Assembly: GCA_012976225.1 (NCBI GenBank)
Contig: JAAVVG010000002.1
Coordinates: forward strand, 1,178,001-1,242,000
Reading direction: 5' to 3'
Origin: Golubevia sp. BC0850
Taxonomy: Eukaryota; Basidiomycota; Exobasidiomycetes; Golubeviales; Golubeviaceae
Length of the DNA: 64,000 bases
Below are positions 16,470-54,027 of this stretch, in pieces (position 1 is the first letter of the stretch; each line of letters opens with the position of its first letter). The notes under the pieces were generated by a model. That model had not been told where the DNA came from, did no database searches, and was given only the letters and a program-made list of their open reading frames with translations. The translations under genes and the position numbers were made by a program.

Positions 16470-19400
16470 ATGGGACAACAAGCCTCATGTCCTGCTACAG
16501 AACCTTCAGATTCCAATAATCAAGATACAGAAACCATCATCAACTCAAATTCAAAGAGAGAAAGATCTGAATCCGATGACTCTGAGAATGAGTTGGCTAC
16601 TGCAGATTTAGAGACCGAAACTGAGCCCTCAAGTTCAAATAGAAGATCTACTAGAAAGCGCAAGACTGGCTCAGATTCTTCTTTGGACCTTCCAGAACAA
16701 TCTTCTTCTTCTACCAATGCCCCCACTTCAAGACGTCAATCCAGTCGTAACTCCTCCTCCTCCTCCACTCAAGCACAACAGCAACCCAAACAAACCACTG
16801 CTTCTAGATTACGCTCTCTAGCTCGTTTAGGTAGTAGTAAGAACGCTCGTCAGCAAGCAGCTGTCCAGAATGAGGATGAGGACATGAAGGAAAGAGAAGA
16901 TGAGGAAGAGGGAGTAGATGATGACATGGAAGTCGATGGAACCTCAAAGGCCAAGTCAAAAGGAAAGGGCAAAGGGAAAGGAAAGGAGAGCGAGAAATCA
17001 AACGAATCTGGTATCTCAACTCAAGGAAGAAGTTCAAATCAGAATGCAACCTATGCAGCTGAGTCAAGTCAATCAGCACCTCAAGCACCCACTTCAGATG
17101 GACCAGCATCGTCTCCAAGTTCTTCTGCAGCTAGAAGTCTAAGTGAAGGACTGGCTGCTACCTTAGCTAGACTGGCTGGTCCAAGACCAGCTTCTAGAGG
17201 TGGAGCTTCTGCTGCTTCTGCTAATGGAGCTGCTTCTTCAGGACCTTCTTCAGGCATTCCTGAAGGTCCACTCTCCGCCATAAGAGCTCTTGGAGCCCTG
17301 GCTTTAGGATTTCCAATTGTCAGTGGTTCCGCAGGAGAGGTCGGCGGTCCACTACAAGCCCTTCTAACCGACATCATGGGTCCTACGAGCCTTGCGATCC
17401 CAAGACCCACCAACCCCTTTCAATCTCAAGATGCAAGCACTGGAACAACAACCCCTCCTCAAGGTGGAGCAAGCTCGAATCCAACTGAAGCTGGAAGTAG
17501 AGCTGGATCTATGCCAGGAGAAGGAGGATCAGGGAACGCTGCTGGAGCAGGTGGGAACGGGGGTACAGCCCCTCAAAGACTCCCGGGTCAAAGAGGAGGG
17601 ACCTCTATCATCGTCCAAGGTGCTCTCATTGCAAGAGTGAGTAGACTGGGAGAAACCGGAGGAGACATTCGTCTTTTTATCTTGTTTGACGAATCCACTA
17701 GGCTTTTTCACTGATCTCATCTCTCGATCTCTTTCCTCCCACTTCCTTTCAGACTCTACCTTCGCCTGCTAATCCTACTGAACCGGAATCTCAAGAATCT
17801 GAGCTTTCGGAGGAATCCATCCCAGAAGTCACCACCGAAACCTCAGCCAGAGCTGCCAGAGCCACCCGTCGTGCTCGTCGCTCAGAGGGAGCCCCTCCTC
17901 CACCTCCGACGAACCCATCTCCTGCTCCTCAACCATACACTGCCGCGGGAGCTATTCCTTCCAACGATGGTGCCCAAGGAGGAGCTCCCCAAGCTCAGGC
18001 AGCTACGATCGAGGATCAAGCTGGAATGTTACAACGTCTTCTCTCCGTAGCCTCCTCCGCGACTGCCCTCTCTCTGATCACCTCCGATCAACAATCCGCT
18101 ATCTCTAATAGAGCGTCTCAAGCGGCCTCTAGAAGTGAAGGAGCCAGGGACGTTCGCAGTGCCGTCACTGATGCTCTGCTCGGTGCTGGAGCCCAACGTC
18201 CCATCGCCGGAAATAGTCGTACAGCTGGTGCGAATGAGCAGAGAACTCCAAGCGGATCTTCACCTACTTCAAATGACACTGCTGCCCTGGCAAGCGGTCT
18301 CAGAAACTCTCTTCGTGGACGCTCCTCTCGCGGTGAAGCGTCCGAACAAGAAGGATCTTCTCCCACCGCTCCGGAAGGTCGTGCTGCTCCTGGTTCTCTC
18401 GATCAACGTTGGGCAACCGCTCGTAGCCAAAGCAATTGCGACGAAGCAGAGGATTCTCAAGGTTCAGACGATTCTCAAGATCCAAACATGTCACCTTCAG
18501 ATCAAGCAGCTCAAAACGCATCAAGAATGGGTAGAATGCTACACGACACTCTTCGTCAAGGATTCGGAAGAATGGTCAGTGGTGATGATGCTTCTAATTC
18601 TTCAACCTCTAATTCCTCAAATCGTCAACGTACGTCAACCGCCGCTTCTTCAGCTTCTTCCACTTCTCCTCAAGCCTCTCAACTAGCAAGCATCAACGAG
18701 ACTCTAGCTGCTGCTAGAAATGGTCACATGGAGCGTGGATCTGTCGATGGAAGTTTCCAACGTTTCATGTATGAATTGGTTCAAGACTTAGGAGTTGCCG
18801 TCAGAGGAGTCAGAGGGACCAACCTCGATGGGGCAGCAGCAACAGCAGCTAATCAAGAGGGAAACAACTCCATCACTGACCCAGCTGTCAGTGAGCGTAG
18901 AGATGGAGATCTTTCAAGTGGAAGATTGTCCTTTTATCGTCTTTTCAGATTTGAAACTGCTCAACCAACTTCCAACACCTCTCCCCCACCGTTGATTCCT
19001 GCTTTGATCGTAGGAGTCCGCTCCATGGGTGCTGCAGGTGAAGGAATCGGTGCCATGTTTGGTGGTGGTGGAACTGGATCCGCTTTAGATGATGACGAAA
19101 ACGACAGCGACGAGGACGAAGAAGTAGGACAACCTGCTTTCAGATCTACCTCTTCTACTACCAATCAAGATGGAATCTCTGTAACTCAAGGAGAGAGGAG
19201 AAGTACTAGCAACAACAACAATGCAGCTGAGCAACCAACCAATCGCTTCTTGCTGTTCGTTGCTGGAGGAACTTTTAGCGAAACTCACCCCCTTTTGGCT
19301 TCGTCTAACAACGTAGCTAGAAGAGACGTTTTGGCTCTTATTGAGATTCTCTCCATCTTCAATGCTTTAGGATTGGCTACTGGTATGGTAGGTATCTTGG

Positions 19401-19996
19401 AAGGTTGGGAGAAGTCGAGCTCGTGGCATACATTCCAATCTTTCATACTGAGTGACTTTCTCCCTAATCTTTCTCCTTCATTCGGCTTTCAGGGAGGACC
19501 TCCAAAACCTCCTACTGCTACTCAAAAGGAGCTCGACCAAGCTAACTTCAAAGCCGTCTTGGGAAACGATCTCGCCGAAGCTGCCTTGAGGGGAGACATT
19601 CACGAGTCTACTGCTGAGAAGTGCCTTATCTGCTGGGAGGAGTGGAGCGTGAGTTAATATATCAATGAGTTGTTAGCTGTGGTCTGTGGCTGCTTTGAAT
19701 CTGACATCAACCAACCCTTCTCCTCTCCACAGGACGAAGATAGATGCAGAGCTTTGAATTGTAAACACGCCTTCCATCAAGACTGCATTTACGAGTGGCT
19801 GACAAAATCTTCCAATAGTTGTCCTTGTTGTTAGTATCAAGCACGCCTTGACAAGCTCCAGTCGATCCAGTACTCAGCAGCCACTCATCTCTTCTCCTCG
19901 ACTTTCCATCTCTTCTCTCTCCCCTCAGGTCGTAGACCAGCAGTGTCCAAACCGGGAGCCTCCGCTCAGTCTTCATCTCCTGTTCCAGTGATGTAA
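16470..19996 (+). CDS. Large RING-H2 E3 ubiquitin ligase with disordered N-terminus
   Basis: Exons 16470-17636, 17753-19648, 19733-19829 and 19929-19996 give up to 1075 aa. Nearly all is low-complexity Ser/Ala/Gly/Glu with basic and acidic clusters, such as KSKGKGKGKGKESEK and an Asp/Glu run near residue 150. The only recognised domain is C-terminal: EKCLICWEEWS, then CRALNCKHAFHQDCIYEWL and SCPCCRRP, a complete RING-H2 zinc-binding set that recruits an E2. The start MGQQASC fits an N-myristoylation signal with a palmitoylatable Cys, so membrane attachment is inferred. A 105-nt stretch (19388-19492) ending in a strong pyrimidine-rich acceptor may be an extra in-frame intron, giving 1040 aa. 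The RING-coding end lies within the 857-bp tandem duplication. The substrate is unknown. Confidence 0.8.
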
Positions 19997-20619
19997 GAGG
20001 TCGGATCCTAGTCCAACCTCGACCGAAAGGAGCTGGCATCTCCTATTCGACTACCTTTATTTCCGTCCCCCTTCGCCTTCACCATTGCCGTTAATAGAGT
20101 CCCACGCATTGACTACAAGCAATTGAACACACATGCATCTAGCAAAACTGAGAGCCTCAAAACACAATTGCCCCCAAAACAGAAATAAAACCCTCTTGTT
20201 CCCGTTCTCTCTTTTTTCGAACTCCATCCCTGCGCTTCCATTCTTCCCGACAACACCTGTATCTTTAACATCACAAGATTTGACTTTTTTACCAATCACG
20301 AGAGCTAAACAACAATTAGACTTTCTAGACCCTCTCGCATCACCGCGTCCTAAAGGAGCGTCCGACGTAAAGCGCTCCCGATTCAATTTTAGAGACCCGT
20401 TGCTCGCCCTGAAGGGGGCGAATTTCTTCTACTTAACGTTTTGCTTTCCATTCTTTGTCTTCCCTCTTTCTCGTTCTCATTCTTCCTCTTCTTCTCTTCA
20501 CGAGATGCCTTTCTCCAGTCCAAGGCAGATGCCGGAAGCTCTGGATCTGGCTTGTCTTCCATCAGCAGTTCCACTTCGCTTCACCAGAGAACGAGTAGAA
20601 AGTCAAAGTTCTGCAAGTG
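19763..20619. repeat. 857-bp tandem duplication, copy 1
   Basis: This copy runs from inside exon 3 of the RING gene through its last intron, last exon and 3' flank, then through the promoter and first 38 or so codons of a truncated copy of the downstream GAF gene. It matches 20620-21476 at an offset of exactly 857 bp. I found no difference by reading the two side by side. At the junction the sequences share AA, a 2-bp microhomology between the original left end (TTGTAAACACG) and right end (AGTGAATCTT). Confidence 0.93.
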
Positions 20620-20675
20620 AAACACGCCTTCCATCAAGACTGCATTTACGAGTGGCTGACAAAATCTTCCAATAG
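20505..20675 (+). pseudogene. Truncated 5' copy of the GAF-protein gene
   Basis: This is the duplicate of the first 38-39 codons of the gene that starts at 21362, with the same upstream flank. It begins MPFSSPRQMPEALDLAC and stays identical through RVESQSSASE. At the duplication junction it then runs into copied RING-gene sequence in a different frame and stops after about 17 unrelated residues. The product would be 56 aa with no domain. Its promoter is a full copy of that of the intact gene, so it may be transcribed. Confidence 0.75.
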
Positions 20676-20853
20676 TTGTCCTTGTTGTTAGTATCAAGCA
20701 CGCCTTGACAAGCTCCAGTCGATCCAGTACTCAGCAGCCACTCATCTCTTCTCCTCGACTTTCCATCTCTTCTCTCTCCCCTCAGGTCGTAGACCAGCAG
20801 TGTCCAAACCGGGAGCCTCCGCTCAGTCTTCATCTCCTGTTCCAGTGATGTAA
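20620..20853 (+). pseudogene. Truncated 3' copy of the RING E3 gene
   Basis: This fragment repeats the end of exon 3 (from within the RING domain), the last intron and the last exon of the RING E3 gene, down to the stop equivalent to 19996. It lacks any start, the first zinc-binding cysteines and more than 1000 upstream codons. It now forms part of the 5' flank of the GAF gene. Confidence 0.75.
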
Positions 20854-21476
20854 GAGGTCGGATCCTAGTCCAACCTCGACCGAAAGGAGCTGGCATCTCC
20901 TATTCGACTACCTTTATTTCCGTCCCCCTTCGCCTTCACCATTGCCGTTAATAGAGTCCCACGCATTGACTACAAGCAATTGAACACACATGCATCTAGC
21001 AAAACTGAGAGCCTCAAAACACAATTGCCCCCAAAACAGAAATAAAACCCTCTTGTTCCCGTTCTCTCTTTTTTCGAACTCCATCCCTGCGCTTCCATTC
21101 TTCCCGACAACACCTGTATCTTTAACATCACAAGATTTGACTTTTTTACCAATCACGAGAGCTAAACAACAATTAGACTTTCTAGACCCTCTCGCATCAC
21201 CGCGTCCTAAAGGAGCGTCCGACGTAAAGCGCTCCCGATTCAATTTTAGAGACCCGTTGCTCGCCCTGAAGGGGGCGAATTTCTTCTACTTAACGTTTTG
21301 CTTTCCATTCTTTGTCTTCCCTCTTTCTCGTTCTCATTCTTCCTCTTCTTCTCTTCACGAGATGCCTTTCTCCAGTCCAAGGCAGATGCCGGAAGCTCTG
21401 GATCTGGCTTGTCTTCCATCAGCAGTTCCACTTCGCTTCACCAGAGAACGAGTAGAAAGTCAAAGTTCTGCAAGTG
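20620..21476. repeat. 857-bp tandem duplication, copy 2
   Basis: This is the second copy of the unit. It starts with a 3' fragment of the RING gene and ends inside the first exon of the intact GAF gene, whose promoter and start codon lie in this copy. The lack of visible divergence in either coding or non-coding parts means a recent event, gene conversion, or an assembly error. Confidence 0.93.
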
Positions 21477-24400
21477 AATCTTTTCCCAATACCCCTCCTC
21501 CTCCTCCTCCTTCTTTCGATCCATTCTCAAGTTCAAGTCCCTCACAGCCACTCAGATCAGCAACCTCTCTTTCAGAACACAACAGAAAGAAGAGAGGGCT
21601 CTTCGGAAAGGCGAAAAAGAGTTCTCCAAATCAGTCATCCCAATTTCCAGATTCATTCACCACTCCTCCAAATCTCAAGAAGAGGTCAAACTGGCTTTCA
21701 AAACTTTCAAGTCGTCGTGGATCGGGCAATGAAGAGGATCCGAATCTTTCACTGATCAAGAGCATTCGTAATGAGCCAGCTTTCGAACGTCCACTTGACA
21801 AAGCTCAGCAAAAAGCTCAACAGGAGGCCATGATAGAATCGAAGAGGAAACTTCTACACAGAGAAGCATACGATAGTATGTTTGGATCTATTCCTATTTC
21901 TGGTTCCTCCGTCTATCCTCTCAACTCCAAAACCTCTCCCAAAGAGGTTCCCATCACGTATTCCGCATACGTCGACCTCTATCGAGTCGGTGGATTGGAT
22001 CTTTCAGACCCTCCCTCTATCCCCTTTCAAGACCCAGCAGCAAGAGCATCTGGAATCTTCACTCGCATCAAGGACAAGGATGAGAGAGAGAGATCAAATC
22101 AACTCCCTTTCCCAACCGTCGCTGGTCGTTCAGGAACGAGGTTCGTCGACCTTAGCCGTCCCAAAACTATGGATAGCTCTTTTCAGGAAACGTCCAACGA
22201 TACCTCCGCCTCTCAGTTCGTTCCCAGAGGTAGTTTCATGCCTCTCCGTCCAAGAACTGCAGAAGGCAGTGTCGGTCAAAAGCTCTCTCCTTTCAACGCT
22301 CAAGACGGATCGTCACCCTCCATTTCACCTCTTCGTCCTCTCAAGAATGCTCTTCAACTAACCGGATGCAGTAGCGATGAGGAAGGCGATGAGTATCACG
22401 GAGTACATAAGTCTTCAAGTGATGGAGGGAAGCAAGAGGTTTGGGAAATAGTCACCTCAGACAAGGAAGACGATCGTGATCGTTCAGACGGAGAGTTAGA
22501 TCTTGAGAGTAGTCCGCTCAGCAGAGATTCTGGACATAGATTTCCTTCCATCTCTTCTGGAAGACCCTCTTCTCAAAGTCTTTCTCCTTCCTTCCTGGCC
22601 ATCAAGAGAGGAATGAGAGCTCCGAGGCCAATCTTCGAGATGGAGAGGCAAGCAGAAGTGCTTCTCTACAACCCCAAGAAGTTCACGCAAGCCGTCCACG
22701 AACAAGTGGCTCCTTCTCTGATGCCGGAGTCTCCTTTGATCACCAGATCTTTAGCAGATGAGTTTCTAGAGAAGGAAACTGACCAAGCTCAGGTCGAAGG
22801 ACTTGGCAGCAAATCTCAAGGAATCGTCGAACAGCTCTGTGTGAAGATGGGAGTACCTGGAGCTAGATTTATTCTCTTGGATGATGAAGAAATGAGAGTT
22901 GTTGCTAGAAGTGACGATGGTGGATTGGGAAGCAACACTACTCGGGAACGAAGCTTCGAGGTAGGTCCGAAACAGTCGACAGTAACTCTCTAGCTTGTCA
23001 CGCCTGACCTCCTTTCTCTTTCCCATCCTCGCCCCTTATCAGTCTCACCTTATTCTCAATAGAAATGCTGGAATGGTCGTCTTGAACGCTGAAAAGGATC
23101 CTAGGTTCGCTGATAGTCTCCTGTGCTCCAGTCTTCTCGAGCCTCATCGCCGCCTCAACTTCTTTGCAGGCTTTCCAGTTCTCTCTCAAGGTGGATATCC
23201 AATCGGAGTGCTCTCTGTCTATGATTCTCAGCCTAGAACAGATTGGAAGAGTGGAGAACAGAGATATCTCAAATCTTTGGCGAGTGAGCTGGAGAAAGAG
23301 ATAGAATCGGTGCTGGAAGGCGAATATTTGCTGAGAGAGGCCAAGCTACAGAACAGTGAGTTTCATCAAAATCGAGCTCTCGTAGAGGGAAAGAGATGAT
23401 GAAGCGAGCGCTCACTCTATGCCTTTCCTTGCGCTTTCCTTTCTTAAAAAAGGCTTTGCCGTCTTTAATCGTGCTCTGAACAGATTCGGCACATCAACTT
23501 CTTCGATTGGATCGGATTCTGGCAGCTATGGACTAGGTCAATCGTTCTCCTCTACATCTCGCGGAGCTTCAAGCATGAGCAGCTCTCAGAAAAGATTCGC
23601 AAGCTCTTTGGCTGACGAAGTAGCAGAGGCAGAAATCGAAGATCTGGAATGCTCCGTCGACACGGACGATGCAGCCTCCTCTCTCTACGATTCTTCCATC
23701 ATCAATAGCTCCATCGCCGAGGACTCCACTGGGAAGAAGAGAGCTCAACCGATCTTGGATCTCGCGGTTCGTACAGTCGCAGGTGCGCTTGACATTTCGG
23801 TCTGCTACATTGCTGAACGAGATACTCTGCAAGCCAACTCTTCGTTCCAAATCGTCTCTCAGTTCGGTCTGGAGGGAAAAGGATCACTGAAGCTCGACAC
23901 GGCTGCTCATAACAGAATCGCTCTCTCTAGCGTTCCTTCCGTGTTCCAGAACGTAAGAGTAGTCAAAAGCTCAGGAGAACAACAATCGCTTCCTTGGTGG
24001 ACGGACCCTCCATTCTCTTTCCATGGTGGAGCTTTGGTATCTTGTCAATCTTTCGGAGCTACTGGAATGGTCAACGACAGGGCTAGTCTGTTCGTTCTGG
24101 TGGCGCTTACCCCTGATCATCGACGCCTGATTAGTTCGTTCGGTAAGTCGACGTGCTTGGTTTCGCCTCTCATTCGATGTTGAAGCTTACCCTTTCGCTT
24201 TCCCTTTACAGAACTCAAGTACCTCGAGCAGATGGTGGACCTTCTCATCCCGTGTCTTACCTTCACTCCTTCAGCCCCGTCTTCAGCCACTTCAACCCAT
24301 CTAATGAGCCCCCTGAGTAGAGTAGTCAGCAGAGATCATCACTCTTCTCGCGCTGCCAGCCCCAAGACAGGAAACTCTTCCAAGGCTTCTCTACCAAGTC

Positions 24401-24945
24401 CTAGCAACCTGTTCGCAGTCGCCCGTGACTCGAGAGATCCAGGTTCATCTCCTTTCGGTCTATCTCAATCTCAAACAGAGAGGAAGGAAGGAGAAGCAAT
24501 CGGACTAGGATTCTCCTCGTCTCCAACCAAAGCCATTCAACCAACGAGATCTTCAATGAGGTTCCGTAGCTCTATGGATAGAGCTCGCTCTTTCATCAGA
24601 GGCTCGAACCTGAATGAAAATGGACTTTCGAAGAATATTACTCCCAAACCTAGCTGGTCAGGAGCAGATCCTTCAGCAACCGAAAAGGAGAACGAGCTGG
24701 CAGTTTCCTCGTTCAGAACTTTCACCAGTAAGCGATCCTACTCCCTCCCTGGATCTCCAACTACAAGAGAGCCGGAAGACCCTCGTTTTGACTTTGGAGG
24801 AGAAGTTTTGAATGCAGAAAGCGAGGAGAGCTCGACCATTTCTTGGAATTTCCTCTCAAGCAAAAGAATCCAACGTTTCCGGTCGGATAAGACGTTGAAA
24901 AAGGAGAGATCCTCCAAGTCTCTGTCTCGTCAAAGATCCAGGTAG
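21362..24945 (+). CDS. Double GAF-domain protein
   Basis: Four exons (21362-22960, 23043-23355, 23453-24142, 24212-24945) give 1111 aa. The first 470 residues are disordered and rich in Ser, Pro and basic residues. A GAF domain follows at about 490-640: MGVPGARFILLDDEEMRVVA, then RLNFFAGFPVLSQGGYPIGV and LSVYDSQPRTDW, the classic GAF core. A second, more divergent GAF-like domain lies at about 730-880 (LDLAVRTVAGALDISVCYIA). The C-terminal 230 residues are again disordered and Ser/Arg-rich. GAF domains bind cyclic nucleotides, small ligands or chromophores; here no kinase, cyclase or phosphodiesterase domain is fused. Its ligand is unknown. The start codon and promoter lie in copy 2 of the 857-bp duplication. 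Confidence 0.85.
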
Positions 24946-48822: not shown

Positions 48823-50058
48823 AGAGGGTGACATGATGGAATGGGAGGAGGAAGGTTGAGAGAGTGGGAGGGAGGAACGAGGTGGTGGGGGAGAGAGAAG
48901 AGAAAGATGAAGGGAGGAAGAGAGGGATGAGGGTTGGAACTTTATTGACTAATTGTGAGTATCAAACAAGCCAGAAGAATAGGTCGGGAGGGCGAGAGGG
49001 GTAGTGAAAGACAATTAAGACAGGTTCGAGGTTTAGGAATGTTTCTTCCCGAAACCTCAATGAAGTAGCATCTCGAAGCATCTTTCAAGCGCTACCCTGC
49101 AAAGATCTATTTGATTAGAGGACGCAGATGGAACTGGAAAGAAGGGCTATTCACTCAGCTGCTCCCAAATGGGCAGGTCAAGACTGTGGAGCATGCCTCG
49201 GGAGCCAATGAGAGTCAAGGTAAAACCAAAGCTCTGGAGAAGGCCAGTGTAGTTCTCATCTGTTCGCTCGAAAGGGGACAACTAATCTTCTTTTGTTGGG
49301 GAGAACTCCAAACTCTGATTTGGGAAATTGAAATCCTTATCTTCTGAGAGATAAGGCGACCCAAACAATCAGAGCCAACAACTTCCTTCGTCTTCAGATC
49401 AACCTTCCTGCTCTCTTGTGGGTTTCCAAATACTCATCCAAGTTTCTTCTCTTTCTTTCCTCACTTTCACTCTTTCCCTTCGAAACAGCAGATACTCCAA
49501 CTCGCCTCTAGTTGTTCCCCTCTTCAAAACTTGTCTATCTTCCTCTTTCCTCTCTCTTCTTTCCCTCAAACACGCTACAACACAACTCTAATTCTACTCC
49601 TCTTTTCTTGAACCTTTTCTCTATTTTCTGGTCCTCATGGTTTCTTTTGACATCTCTTTTCTCTCAAAACAAATCAACCTTTCCGCTTTGTCTTCTCTCT
49701 TGATTGTTATTGTTCTTGTGTGTACCTCTGCTTGACCAAGACGAGGATTTGATGATCTGATCTGAAGCCTGAAAGTCTGACCATGGATCCTATTGAGCTT
49801 AGAATCGAGATGAGAGAATCTTTTGGAGTTAAGAAGCTTTGGTCGGGTGAGCAAGTTGTTGAATCTACGGTGATAGCGACTCGGCCTCGCATATCTTTCA
49901 ACAACTTGCTCACCCGACCAAAGCTTCTTAACTCCAAAACCCATCACCTATTCTTCTTCTTCTCTTTCTCCTCATACCTAATCAACATCAATCCACAGCG
50001 AAATCTAAAGAGCCGCCGCCATTTGCTCTTTGAAACCAATTCAATTCCCCAAACCATA
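48823..50058. other. 1.24-kb intergenic stretch upstream of the MFS gene
   Basis: The left half is COX6 3' flank, rich in G and A. The right half is CT-rich leader with the MFS promoter and a 43-bp perfect inverted repeat (49821-49939). The frame of the MFS start codon stays open upstream to an ATG at 49783, passing through the repeat, so an N-terminal extension of 92 residues is formally possible but not protein-like. Confidence 0.45.
49821..49939. repeat. 43-bp perfect inverted repeat with 33-nt spacer
   Basis: The left arm (49821-49863) starts TTTTGGAGTTAAGAAGC and the right arm (49897-49939) is its exact complement over all 43 bases. The spacer is 49864-49896. Transcribed from the MFS promoter side it would form a very stable hairpin. 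There are no flanking target duplications that I can see. Confidence 0.97.
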
Positions 50059-51820
50059 ATGACTCAATCATTGCTCATATCTTCATCCACAACCAACCTA
50101 GATGCTCCTTTCATTTCGACTTCAGATCCAGAGAAACTCACAGATTCAAAATCAGATTCGGAATCTCAATCTCATCAAGGATCTGAATCGGAGGAATTAG
50201 CTTCGAAACCAGAAGATCAACCTCCCGATGGTGGGAATCGAGCTTGGTTGGTAGCTTTAGGCTCTTTCCTCCTTTACTTCGTCGCCTTTGGGAACCAAAA
50301 TTCTGCTGGTGTTTTTCAAACTTATTATTTGAATGAATGGAAAGTCGATGGAGTGTTACAGCCTCTGGCTTCCGCCAGTGAGGTCAACTGGGCCTTGTCC
50401 TTCCAGGTGAGAATTAGCTACTGTAGGGAGTTTCGAGGGTCGGAGCAGTGAGAAGTTCAAATCTCCGGATTTCTTGTATCTTTATCTAAAGGCTCACATT
50501 TTGGAAGACGCAAAAGGAGAAAGAAACGATTGAGTCTTCTCCACTTGATTGAGTGCTTATCAACTTTCCCTCATCCTTTTCCAGGTTTTCGTCACCTATG
50601 CTTCCTCTGGTTTCGCAGGTCTAGCAATGAACAAACTCCCAGCTAGAGTCATTCTCCTAGTCGGACTATTCATTTTCGTCCTATCATTAGAGCTTCTCAG
50701 CATTTCAACCTCTTATTGGTCCGTTTTCCTCACTCAAGGACTTCTTCAAGGAATTGGAACTGGTTTACTCTTCACCCCAGCTTTAGCTTGCACTTCTCAA
50801 TATTTCAATAAGAATAGAGGTTTGGCCTTAGGAATCGTGGCTAGTGGCTCTAGCACTGGAGGAGTGTGAGTTTCTGAAAGGAAAGAACAATCAACTCAGG
50901 CTCTCGAGCTCTTCTGACTCGTTCTTTTCTTTCATGTTCAGCGTTTGGCCTATAGTAATGGATCGTCTCATTCATCATGGACCTGGGTTTGCCTGGAGTC
51001 TTAGGATCGTGGGATTTATCTCTTTAGGGATTGGTCTATTCGCAGCTCTCTTCGTTGAGAAGAGATTGGAAAACGTCAAAGAAACTCCTTTCTTTGATTT
51101 GGAGGCTTTCAAGAACAAAGGATTCTCTCTTTTGATGGCTGGGCAGTTCATTGTTTATTTCAGTCTGTTCTTCGAATGTGAGTCTCAAGAGGGGGGGGGG
51201 TTGATCTGTCCACATTTTGGATCTGTGACTTGAGTTCGATTCTCAAAACAAAATCTCAACCTCGTCCCTTTCTCCTTCTCCTCATTTTTCAAGATTATTA
51301 CCTTCCAGCAATTGGAGGCATCCAAGGAATGCCGACTACAAAGATTTTCTACTTAGCATCAGCAAGTAACGGTTGCTCTCTCATCGGTCGCATCTTAGCA
51401 GGGATCCTTGGAGATTCGATTGGAAGATTCAACATTCTCATAGCTTCAACCATAACCTGCTCCATCATCGTCTTCTCTACGATTGCAGCTGTCCATCTAA
51501 CAGGGGATTCAATCACGGCTCCTCTATTTTTGATAGCTTCTTTCTATGGATTCTTCTCAGGAGCCTTCTTTACAACTCAGACCGTCGTAGTAACCATGTT
51601 CTCAACAGATCCCAGAAGAGTTGGAACTTGGATCGGAATGCTTTATGCTGTCGTCGCGATTCCAGCTTTGTTTGGGGCTCCAGTGGGAGCGGTCCTCTTC
51701 CAGAATCACGGATTCCCTCCTGCTTTAATCTTCTCTGGAGGTATTATCTTATTAGGATCGGGTTTCTTGCTCATGAGTAGACAGGTGGCGCAGAAGAAGT
51801 TACATGGTCAAAGAATTTGA
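50059..51820 (+). CDS. MFS transporter, monocarboxylate-porter (MCT/MCH) type
   Basis: Four exons (50059-50406, 50585-50865, 50942-51177, 51294-51820) give 463 aa. A 60-residue hydrophilic N-terminus leads into PPDGGNRAWLVALGSFLLYF, the MCT opening motif. Further segments include FVTYASSGFAGLAMNKLPAR, QGLLQGIGTGLLFTPALACT, NKNRGLALGIVASGSSTGGV and ASNGCSLIGRILAGILGDSI. Twelve membrane helices fit. Fungal members of this group carry riboflavin, monocarboxylates or unknown substrates, so none is assigned. The long leader contains the 43-bp inverted repeat, which could affect translation or mRNA stability. Confidence 0.9.
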
Positions 51821-53932: not shown

Positions 53933-54027
53933 TGACCCAAACGGGGCTCGAACCCGCAATCTTCGACTTTGGCCCATTTTGAATGGTTATTAGAAGGTCG
54001 ACGCGATACCAATTTCGCTATCAGGCC
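53933..54027 (-). tRNA. tRNA-Arg(UCU) with intron
   Basis: Read on the minus strand from 54027. Acceptor stem GGCCTGA pairs with TTGGGTC at the other end, including three wobbles. The D arm is GCGA/TCGC, and the anticodon stem TCGAC/GTCGA encloses the loop CTTCTAA with anticodon TCT (UCU), which reads AGA as Arg. An intron of about 22 nt interrupts the loop after position 37 (about 53969-53990). The T arm is GCGGG-TTCGAGC-CCCGT, a full B box. The discriminator is A at 53933. A T-rich terminator is not obvious just beyond it. Confidence 0.85.

Follow-up and report, generated by a model that had tools for sequence, protein, structure and literature searches.

Tandem duplications that disregard gene boundaries are an established source of chimeric genes. 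In D. yakuba strains, 76 chimeric genes were reported among 1116 tandem duplications, and chimeras formed in this way occur at a lower frequency than duplicates of whole genes, a difference that the authors took to mean that they are mostly detrimental; in the same summary, raised expression is given for 24 of the 76 (PMC5460883). For fission yeast, reversible microhomology-mediated tandem duplications (MTDs) have been described (Dan et al. 2021, cited in the review PMC13207564), and by the account of that review such mechanisms are known mainly from ascomycetes. Adjacent copies in an assembly may also be false, and Ko et al. count a halved or very low read depth, and the presence of gaps separating the two members of a pair, among the main features of false duplications (PMC9516828).

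The window analysed here is a stretch of 64 kb (C22:1178001-1242000) from an assembly of 25,771,031 bases (25.77 Mb) in 64 contigs. Exact comparison showed that it contains an 857-bp unit in two adjacent head-to-tail copies on the plus strand, at 19763-20619 (copy 1) and 20620-21476 (copy 2), which agree at 857/857 bases. The perfect tandem duplication claimed by the initial annotation, identical in coding, intron and intergenic parts alike, was therefore confirmed. When the sequence was compared with itself at a shift of 857, identity extended from 19763 to 20621, so that the exact repeat measures 859 bp including a 2-bp AA overlap at the junction of the copies (20620-20621, without strand), and the bases immediately beyond these 859 bp differ. 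The whole window is free of N, and the copies meet with neither a gap nor an inserted base. A repeat scan had returned just a 300-nt family at 94% identity, because its reference copy overran the left edge, and the true extent was consequently taken from the exact comparison.

The unit bridges two genes on the same strand. The upstream gene (16470-19996, plus strand) was modelled from GT-AG splice sites and an open frame as five exons (16470-17636, 17753-19387, 19493-19648, 19733-19829 and 19929-19996), with its ATG at 16470 and its stop at 19994, and would encode 1040 aa; the last donor, GTTAGT at 19830, was chosen by eye. Its product carries a C-terminal RING-H2 domain (PF13639, zf-RING_2, E 4.1e-11, residues 977-1020), from which E3 ligase activity may be predicted, and the unit starts at a codon boundary inside this domain, after the Cys of L-N-C and before K-H-A-F-H. 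The downstream gene (21362-24945, plus strand) has an open spliced frame of 1111 aa in four modelled exons (21362-22960, 23043-23355, 23453-24142 and 24212-24945), with GT donors and AG acceptors, one of the acceptors being AAG. The stretch 23064-23352 matched the GAF domain profile PF01590 (E 1.3e-07) over positions 65-133 of the profile, and also gave one match among solved structures, to 4zmu, part of a diguanylate cyclase (E 4.1e-05); the role of this protein would be the one that its domain suggests. The right end of the unit lies 115 nt into the GAF coding sequence.

Copy 1 accordingly holds the second half of the RING-H2 domain, the last intron, the RING stop (19994), intergenic DNA, the promoter region of the GAF gene and the first 115 nt of its coding sequence. 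Copy 2, in which every inner coordinate is shifted by 857 relative to copy 1, begins with a headless RING half-exon, continues through the intron (20687-20785) and the stop (20851), and then supplies the intact GAF gene with its promoter region and its start. Since both genes are on the same strand and the unit extends from within the 3' end of the upstream gene to just inside the 5' end of the downstream gene, the RING gene is completed in copy 1 and the GAF gene begins in copy 2. The gene models and domain matches bore out the description of the unit as the 3' end of the one gene together with the promoter region and the opening codons of the other, and both full genes survive, with frames that are open through their splice sites. 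Since both copies carry the RING intron, splicing from copy 1 to copy 2 should still give the same RING message. Two hairpins were seen in the intergenic promoter part of the unit and are present in both copies (20330-20440 and 21187-21297); they fold as RNA with -31.0 kcal/mol over 111 nt, and as DNA barely better than shuffles (z -0.89).

Between the intact genes lies the predicted 56-aa chimeric ORF that had been described, at 20505-20675 on the plus strand. It starts at the copy-1 GAF ATG and has 39 residues in common with the GAF protein, 38 of them from codons lying entirely within the unit and one from a codon that the AA completes, followed by 17 out-of-frame residues from the RING exon and a stop; a Pfam search of the ORF at E up to 0.1 found nothing. 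The unit thus joins the 5' part of one gene to the 3' part of its neighbour, and both parents remain intact. In this the locus resembles the D. yakuba cases, in which duplications likewise ignore gene boundaries and fuse the 5' end of a gene with the 3' end of the gene next to it (PMC5460883), but the chimera here leaves the frame after 39 residues and is only 56 codons long. A gene-bridging, chimera-forming tandem duplication is an already known kind of event, and the 857-bp pair is a further example.

Whole-genome searches, in which the best candidates were scored, matched the unit at its two copies only, and found each flank (left, 18300-19762; right, 21477-22964) once, at its own place; with the unit and both flanks as queries, and again for the best candidates scored, a second allele of the locus was not found. 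The pair is thus a tandem duplication in the usual sense, two adjacent copies of a segment that is not found elsewhere. The local background was assessed in 264,000 contiguous bases (C22:978001-1242000), made up of the window and the 200 kb on its left; this is one contig and about 1% of the genome, and the base rate for duplications rests on it. Within this stretch the pair was the sole exact direct repeat of more than 41 bp within 20 kb, the next longest being a 41-bp repeat inside an array of 11-bp units, and an exact repeat of 857 bp is far beyond chance. Self-BLAST of the same 264 kb (E 1e-5) gave 12 pairs, among which the 857-bp pair was the only tandem one. Nine of the 12 belonged to a dispersed family, and the remaining two were an inverted repeat inside the window and a 63-bp match. 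Other tandem duplications of this size, young or old, numbered 0 in the 264 kb.

The dispersed family (C22 at about 983.5k, 1065k, 1083k and 1093k) has copies that reach about 1.2 kb, lie in both orientations and are 77-97% identical; it is perhaps a transposon relic. Short-period arrays in the window amounted to 12 rows with periods of 5-23. The window also contains an inverted repeat whose two 43-nt arms (49821-49863 and 49897-49939) pair perfectly around a 33-nt loop. It falls within the open frame 49756-50448, in its 5' part, and an MFS match (51182-51817) follows downstream. It was by far the longest perfect hairpin in the 264 kb, the next having 14 nt. A search of the genome gave no further copy, so that it does not look like a multi-copy mobile element, and a snap-back template switch is a possible origin. 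Pfam matches were obtained in six of the ten other open frames of the window, including Mak10, Rft-1 and Hamartin; judged by its eukaryotic gene content, short introns and size, the genome is most likely that of a fungus. A tRNA gene (53933-54027, minus strand) was the only Rfam match above the gathering score in the window. The 5.8S rRNA family gave no match in the whole genome; rDNA may be absent from the assembly, or the search may have missed it.

The initial annotation had noted that a 2-bp AA microhomology marks the junction and had proposed replication slippage or a template switch. Exact comparison upheld the presence of these 2 bp. They are not diagnostic, since at least 2 bp were common at 17.1% of 7,901 window positions sampled at a spacing of 857, the repeat and its surroundings (18801-21499) having been left out of the sampling. 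MTDs characteristically have longer microhomology and shorter units, and often lie inside a gene. Like the fission yeast MTDs, the pair consists of two head-to-tail copies of unique DNA in a presumed fungus, and reversion by recombination would be expected (PMC13207564). Unlike them, it has microhomology of 2 bp, within chance, and it is microhomology beyond chance at the unit ends that defines MTDs.

No homology at the breakpoints beyond the AA was found in exact register. Hairpins were considered as a cause of breakage and set aside: the inverted repeats in 19600-20700 are short, the sole perfect pair having 9-nt arms; as DNA, the stretches at the three breakpoints did not outdo their shuffles in folding (z 0.33, 0.78 and 0.47); and the promoter hairpins, about 180-290 bp from the junction, are not special by the z given above. 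In the absence of further exact homology and of folding above shuffles, slippage between pre-existing repeats is unsupported. Clean edges and head-to-tail copies of unique DNA would fit template switching or end joining between sister chromatids. On the most likely scheme a replication fork or a broken sister chromatid would have been rejoined one unit back, by template switch or end joining with pairing of at most 2 bp, and a segment of unique DNA would thereby have been copied head to tail in a single event. With copy 1 the upstream gene retains a 3' end of its own, and with copy 2 the downstream gene retains its promoter region and start, so that the only new structure is the out-of-frame remnant, 5'-GAF to 3'-RING, that is seen between the genes. 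Recombination between the repeats should reverse the duplication.

These results suggest, with a probability of about 0.6, that the pair is real and goes back to one fairly recent event in which 857 bp of unique DNA were duplicated in tandem. This is favoured by identity at all 857 positions, clean edges and the lack of N and of extra sequence at the junction, and also by the lack of any other copy of the unit, the single flanks in the assembly and the two open gene models. Boundary-ignoring tandem duplications with 5'/3' chimeras are documented in D. yakuba (PMC5460883), and a gap between the copies, described as a main feature of false duplications (PMC9516828), is missing here. However, exact identity and arbitrary edges without homology would also be seen if two contig or read ends overlapping by 857 bp had been abutted and not merged, so that a single-copy stretch was written twice. 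Homotype false duplications are described in PMC9516828, and the pair resembles them in that its copies have no haplotype differences. Neither end of C22 contained even one TTAGGG or CCCTAA unit in its 3-kb end stretch, so the contig that holds the window is not a finished chromosome; the longest telomere-type run in seven 3-kb end stretches of six contigs was three CCCTAA units, at the start of C3, and N was found in 0/7. Finding no other tandem duplication in the 264 kb counts on both sides: it gives no sign of an active duplicating process, which speaks against a real event and for an unmerged overlap, but no further pair written twice in this manner was found either. The pair differs from the homotype cases as described in PMC9516828 in having no gap or N between the copies, and we consider an unmerged overlap less likely than a real duplication, though plausible.

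The possibility that two alleles, or both nuclei of a dikaryon, were strung together had been raised by the initial annotation, and PMC9516828, a study of vertebrate assemblies, describes this heterotype kind as the main source of the false duplications in them. Copies of such an origin should differ at heterozygous sites, but 0/857 differences were found, an outcome with a Poisson probability of 0.42 at an assumed heterozygosity of 0.1%, 0.18 at 0.2%, 0.014 at 0.5% and 0.0002 at 1%. No second allelic copy of either flank was found among the best candidates scored. With no differences, no gap and no second allele found, this version of the artefact is disfavoured and seems very improbable; only a very low heterozygosity would make a haplotype merge credible. 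The pair might, alternatively, be an older duplication held identical by gene conversion, perhaps because a doubled GAF promoter is useful. Identity by itself bounds the age only to less than about 1.7-8.7 million generations, and conversion would preserve identity for longer, but nothing here shows selection, and neither the half-RING copy nor the chimeric ORF has a recognised domain of its own (by Pfam search for the ORF). Tandem repeats also tend to be lost, and we regard an old, conversion-maintained pair as improbable.

As to the age of a real duplication, the lack of any difference over 857 sites puts the divergence at no more than 0.35% (upper 95% bound), and the bound in generations is obtained with assumed mutation rates of 1e-9 to 2e-10 per base per generation. 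Long tandem pairs such as one of 857 bp tend to recombine away, which counts against a real pair unless its origin is recent. The view that the duplication is very recent is favoured by the expected instability of the repeat; identity alone sets a loose age bound and is no proof. RIP was also considered, and copies without any change tell no more than that they have not mutated since. The genome has two matches to cytosine methyltransferases (PF00145; C6:489442-490215 and C44:1059284-1059769).

A real duplication of this layout is probably close to neutral, although this is weakened by the D. yakuba data, in which chimeras were by the authors' reading mostly detrimental and 24/76 had raised expression (PMC5460883). 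An effect on the GAF gene may be envisaged. In one scheme, to which we give very little credence, the duplicated promoter would act as a built-in regulatory switch that can be reversed: transcripts started in copy 1 would run through the chimeric upstream ORF and on into the second promoter, and so dampen or alter the GAF gene, recombinational loss of one unit would reset it, and a culture would contain two expression states.

If the pair is an artefact, it shows once more that perfect tandem copies should be backed by reads before a draft assembly is trusted on them. If it is real, it would be a clean and fresh case of a single repair accident that puts a second promoter before a gene and creates a chimeric frame while both neighbours stay whole, in a setting that, over the 264 kb, has no other local duplication apart from short-period arrays, and the 857-bp pair could then act as a natural reporter for repeat loss.
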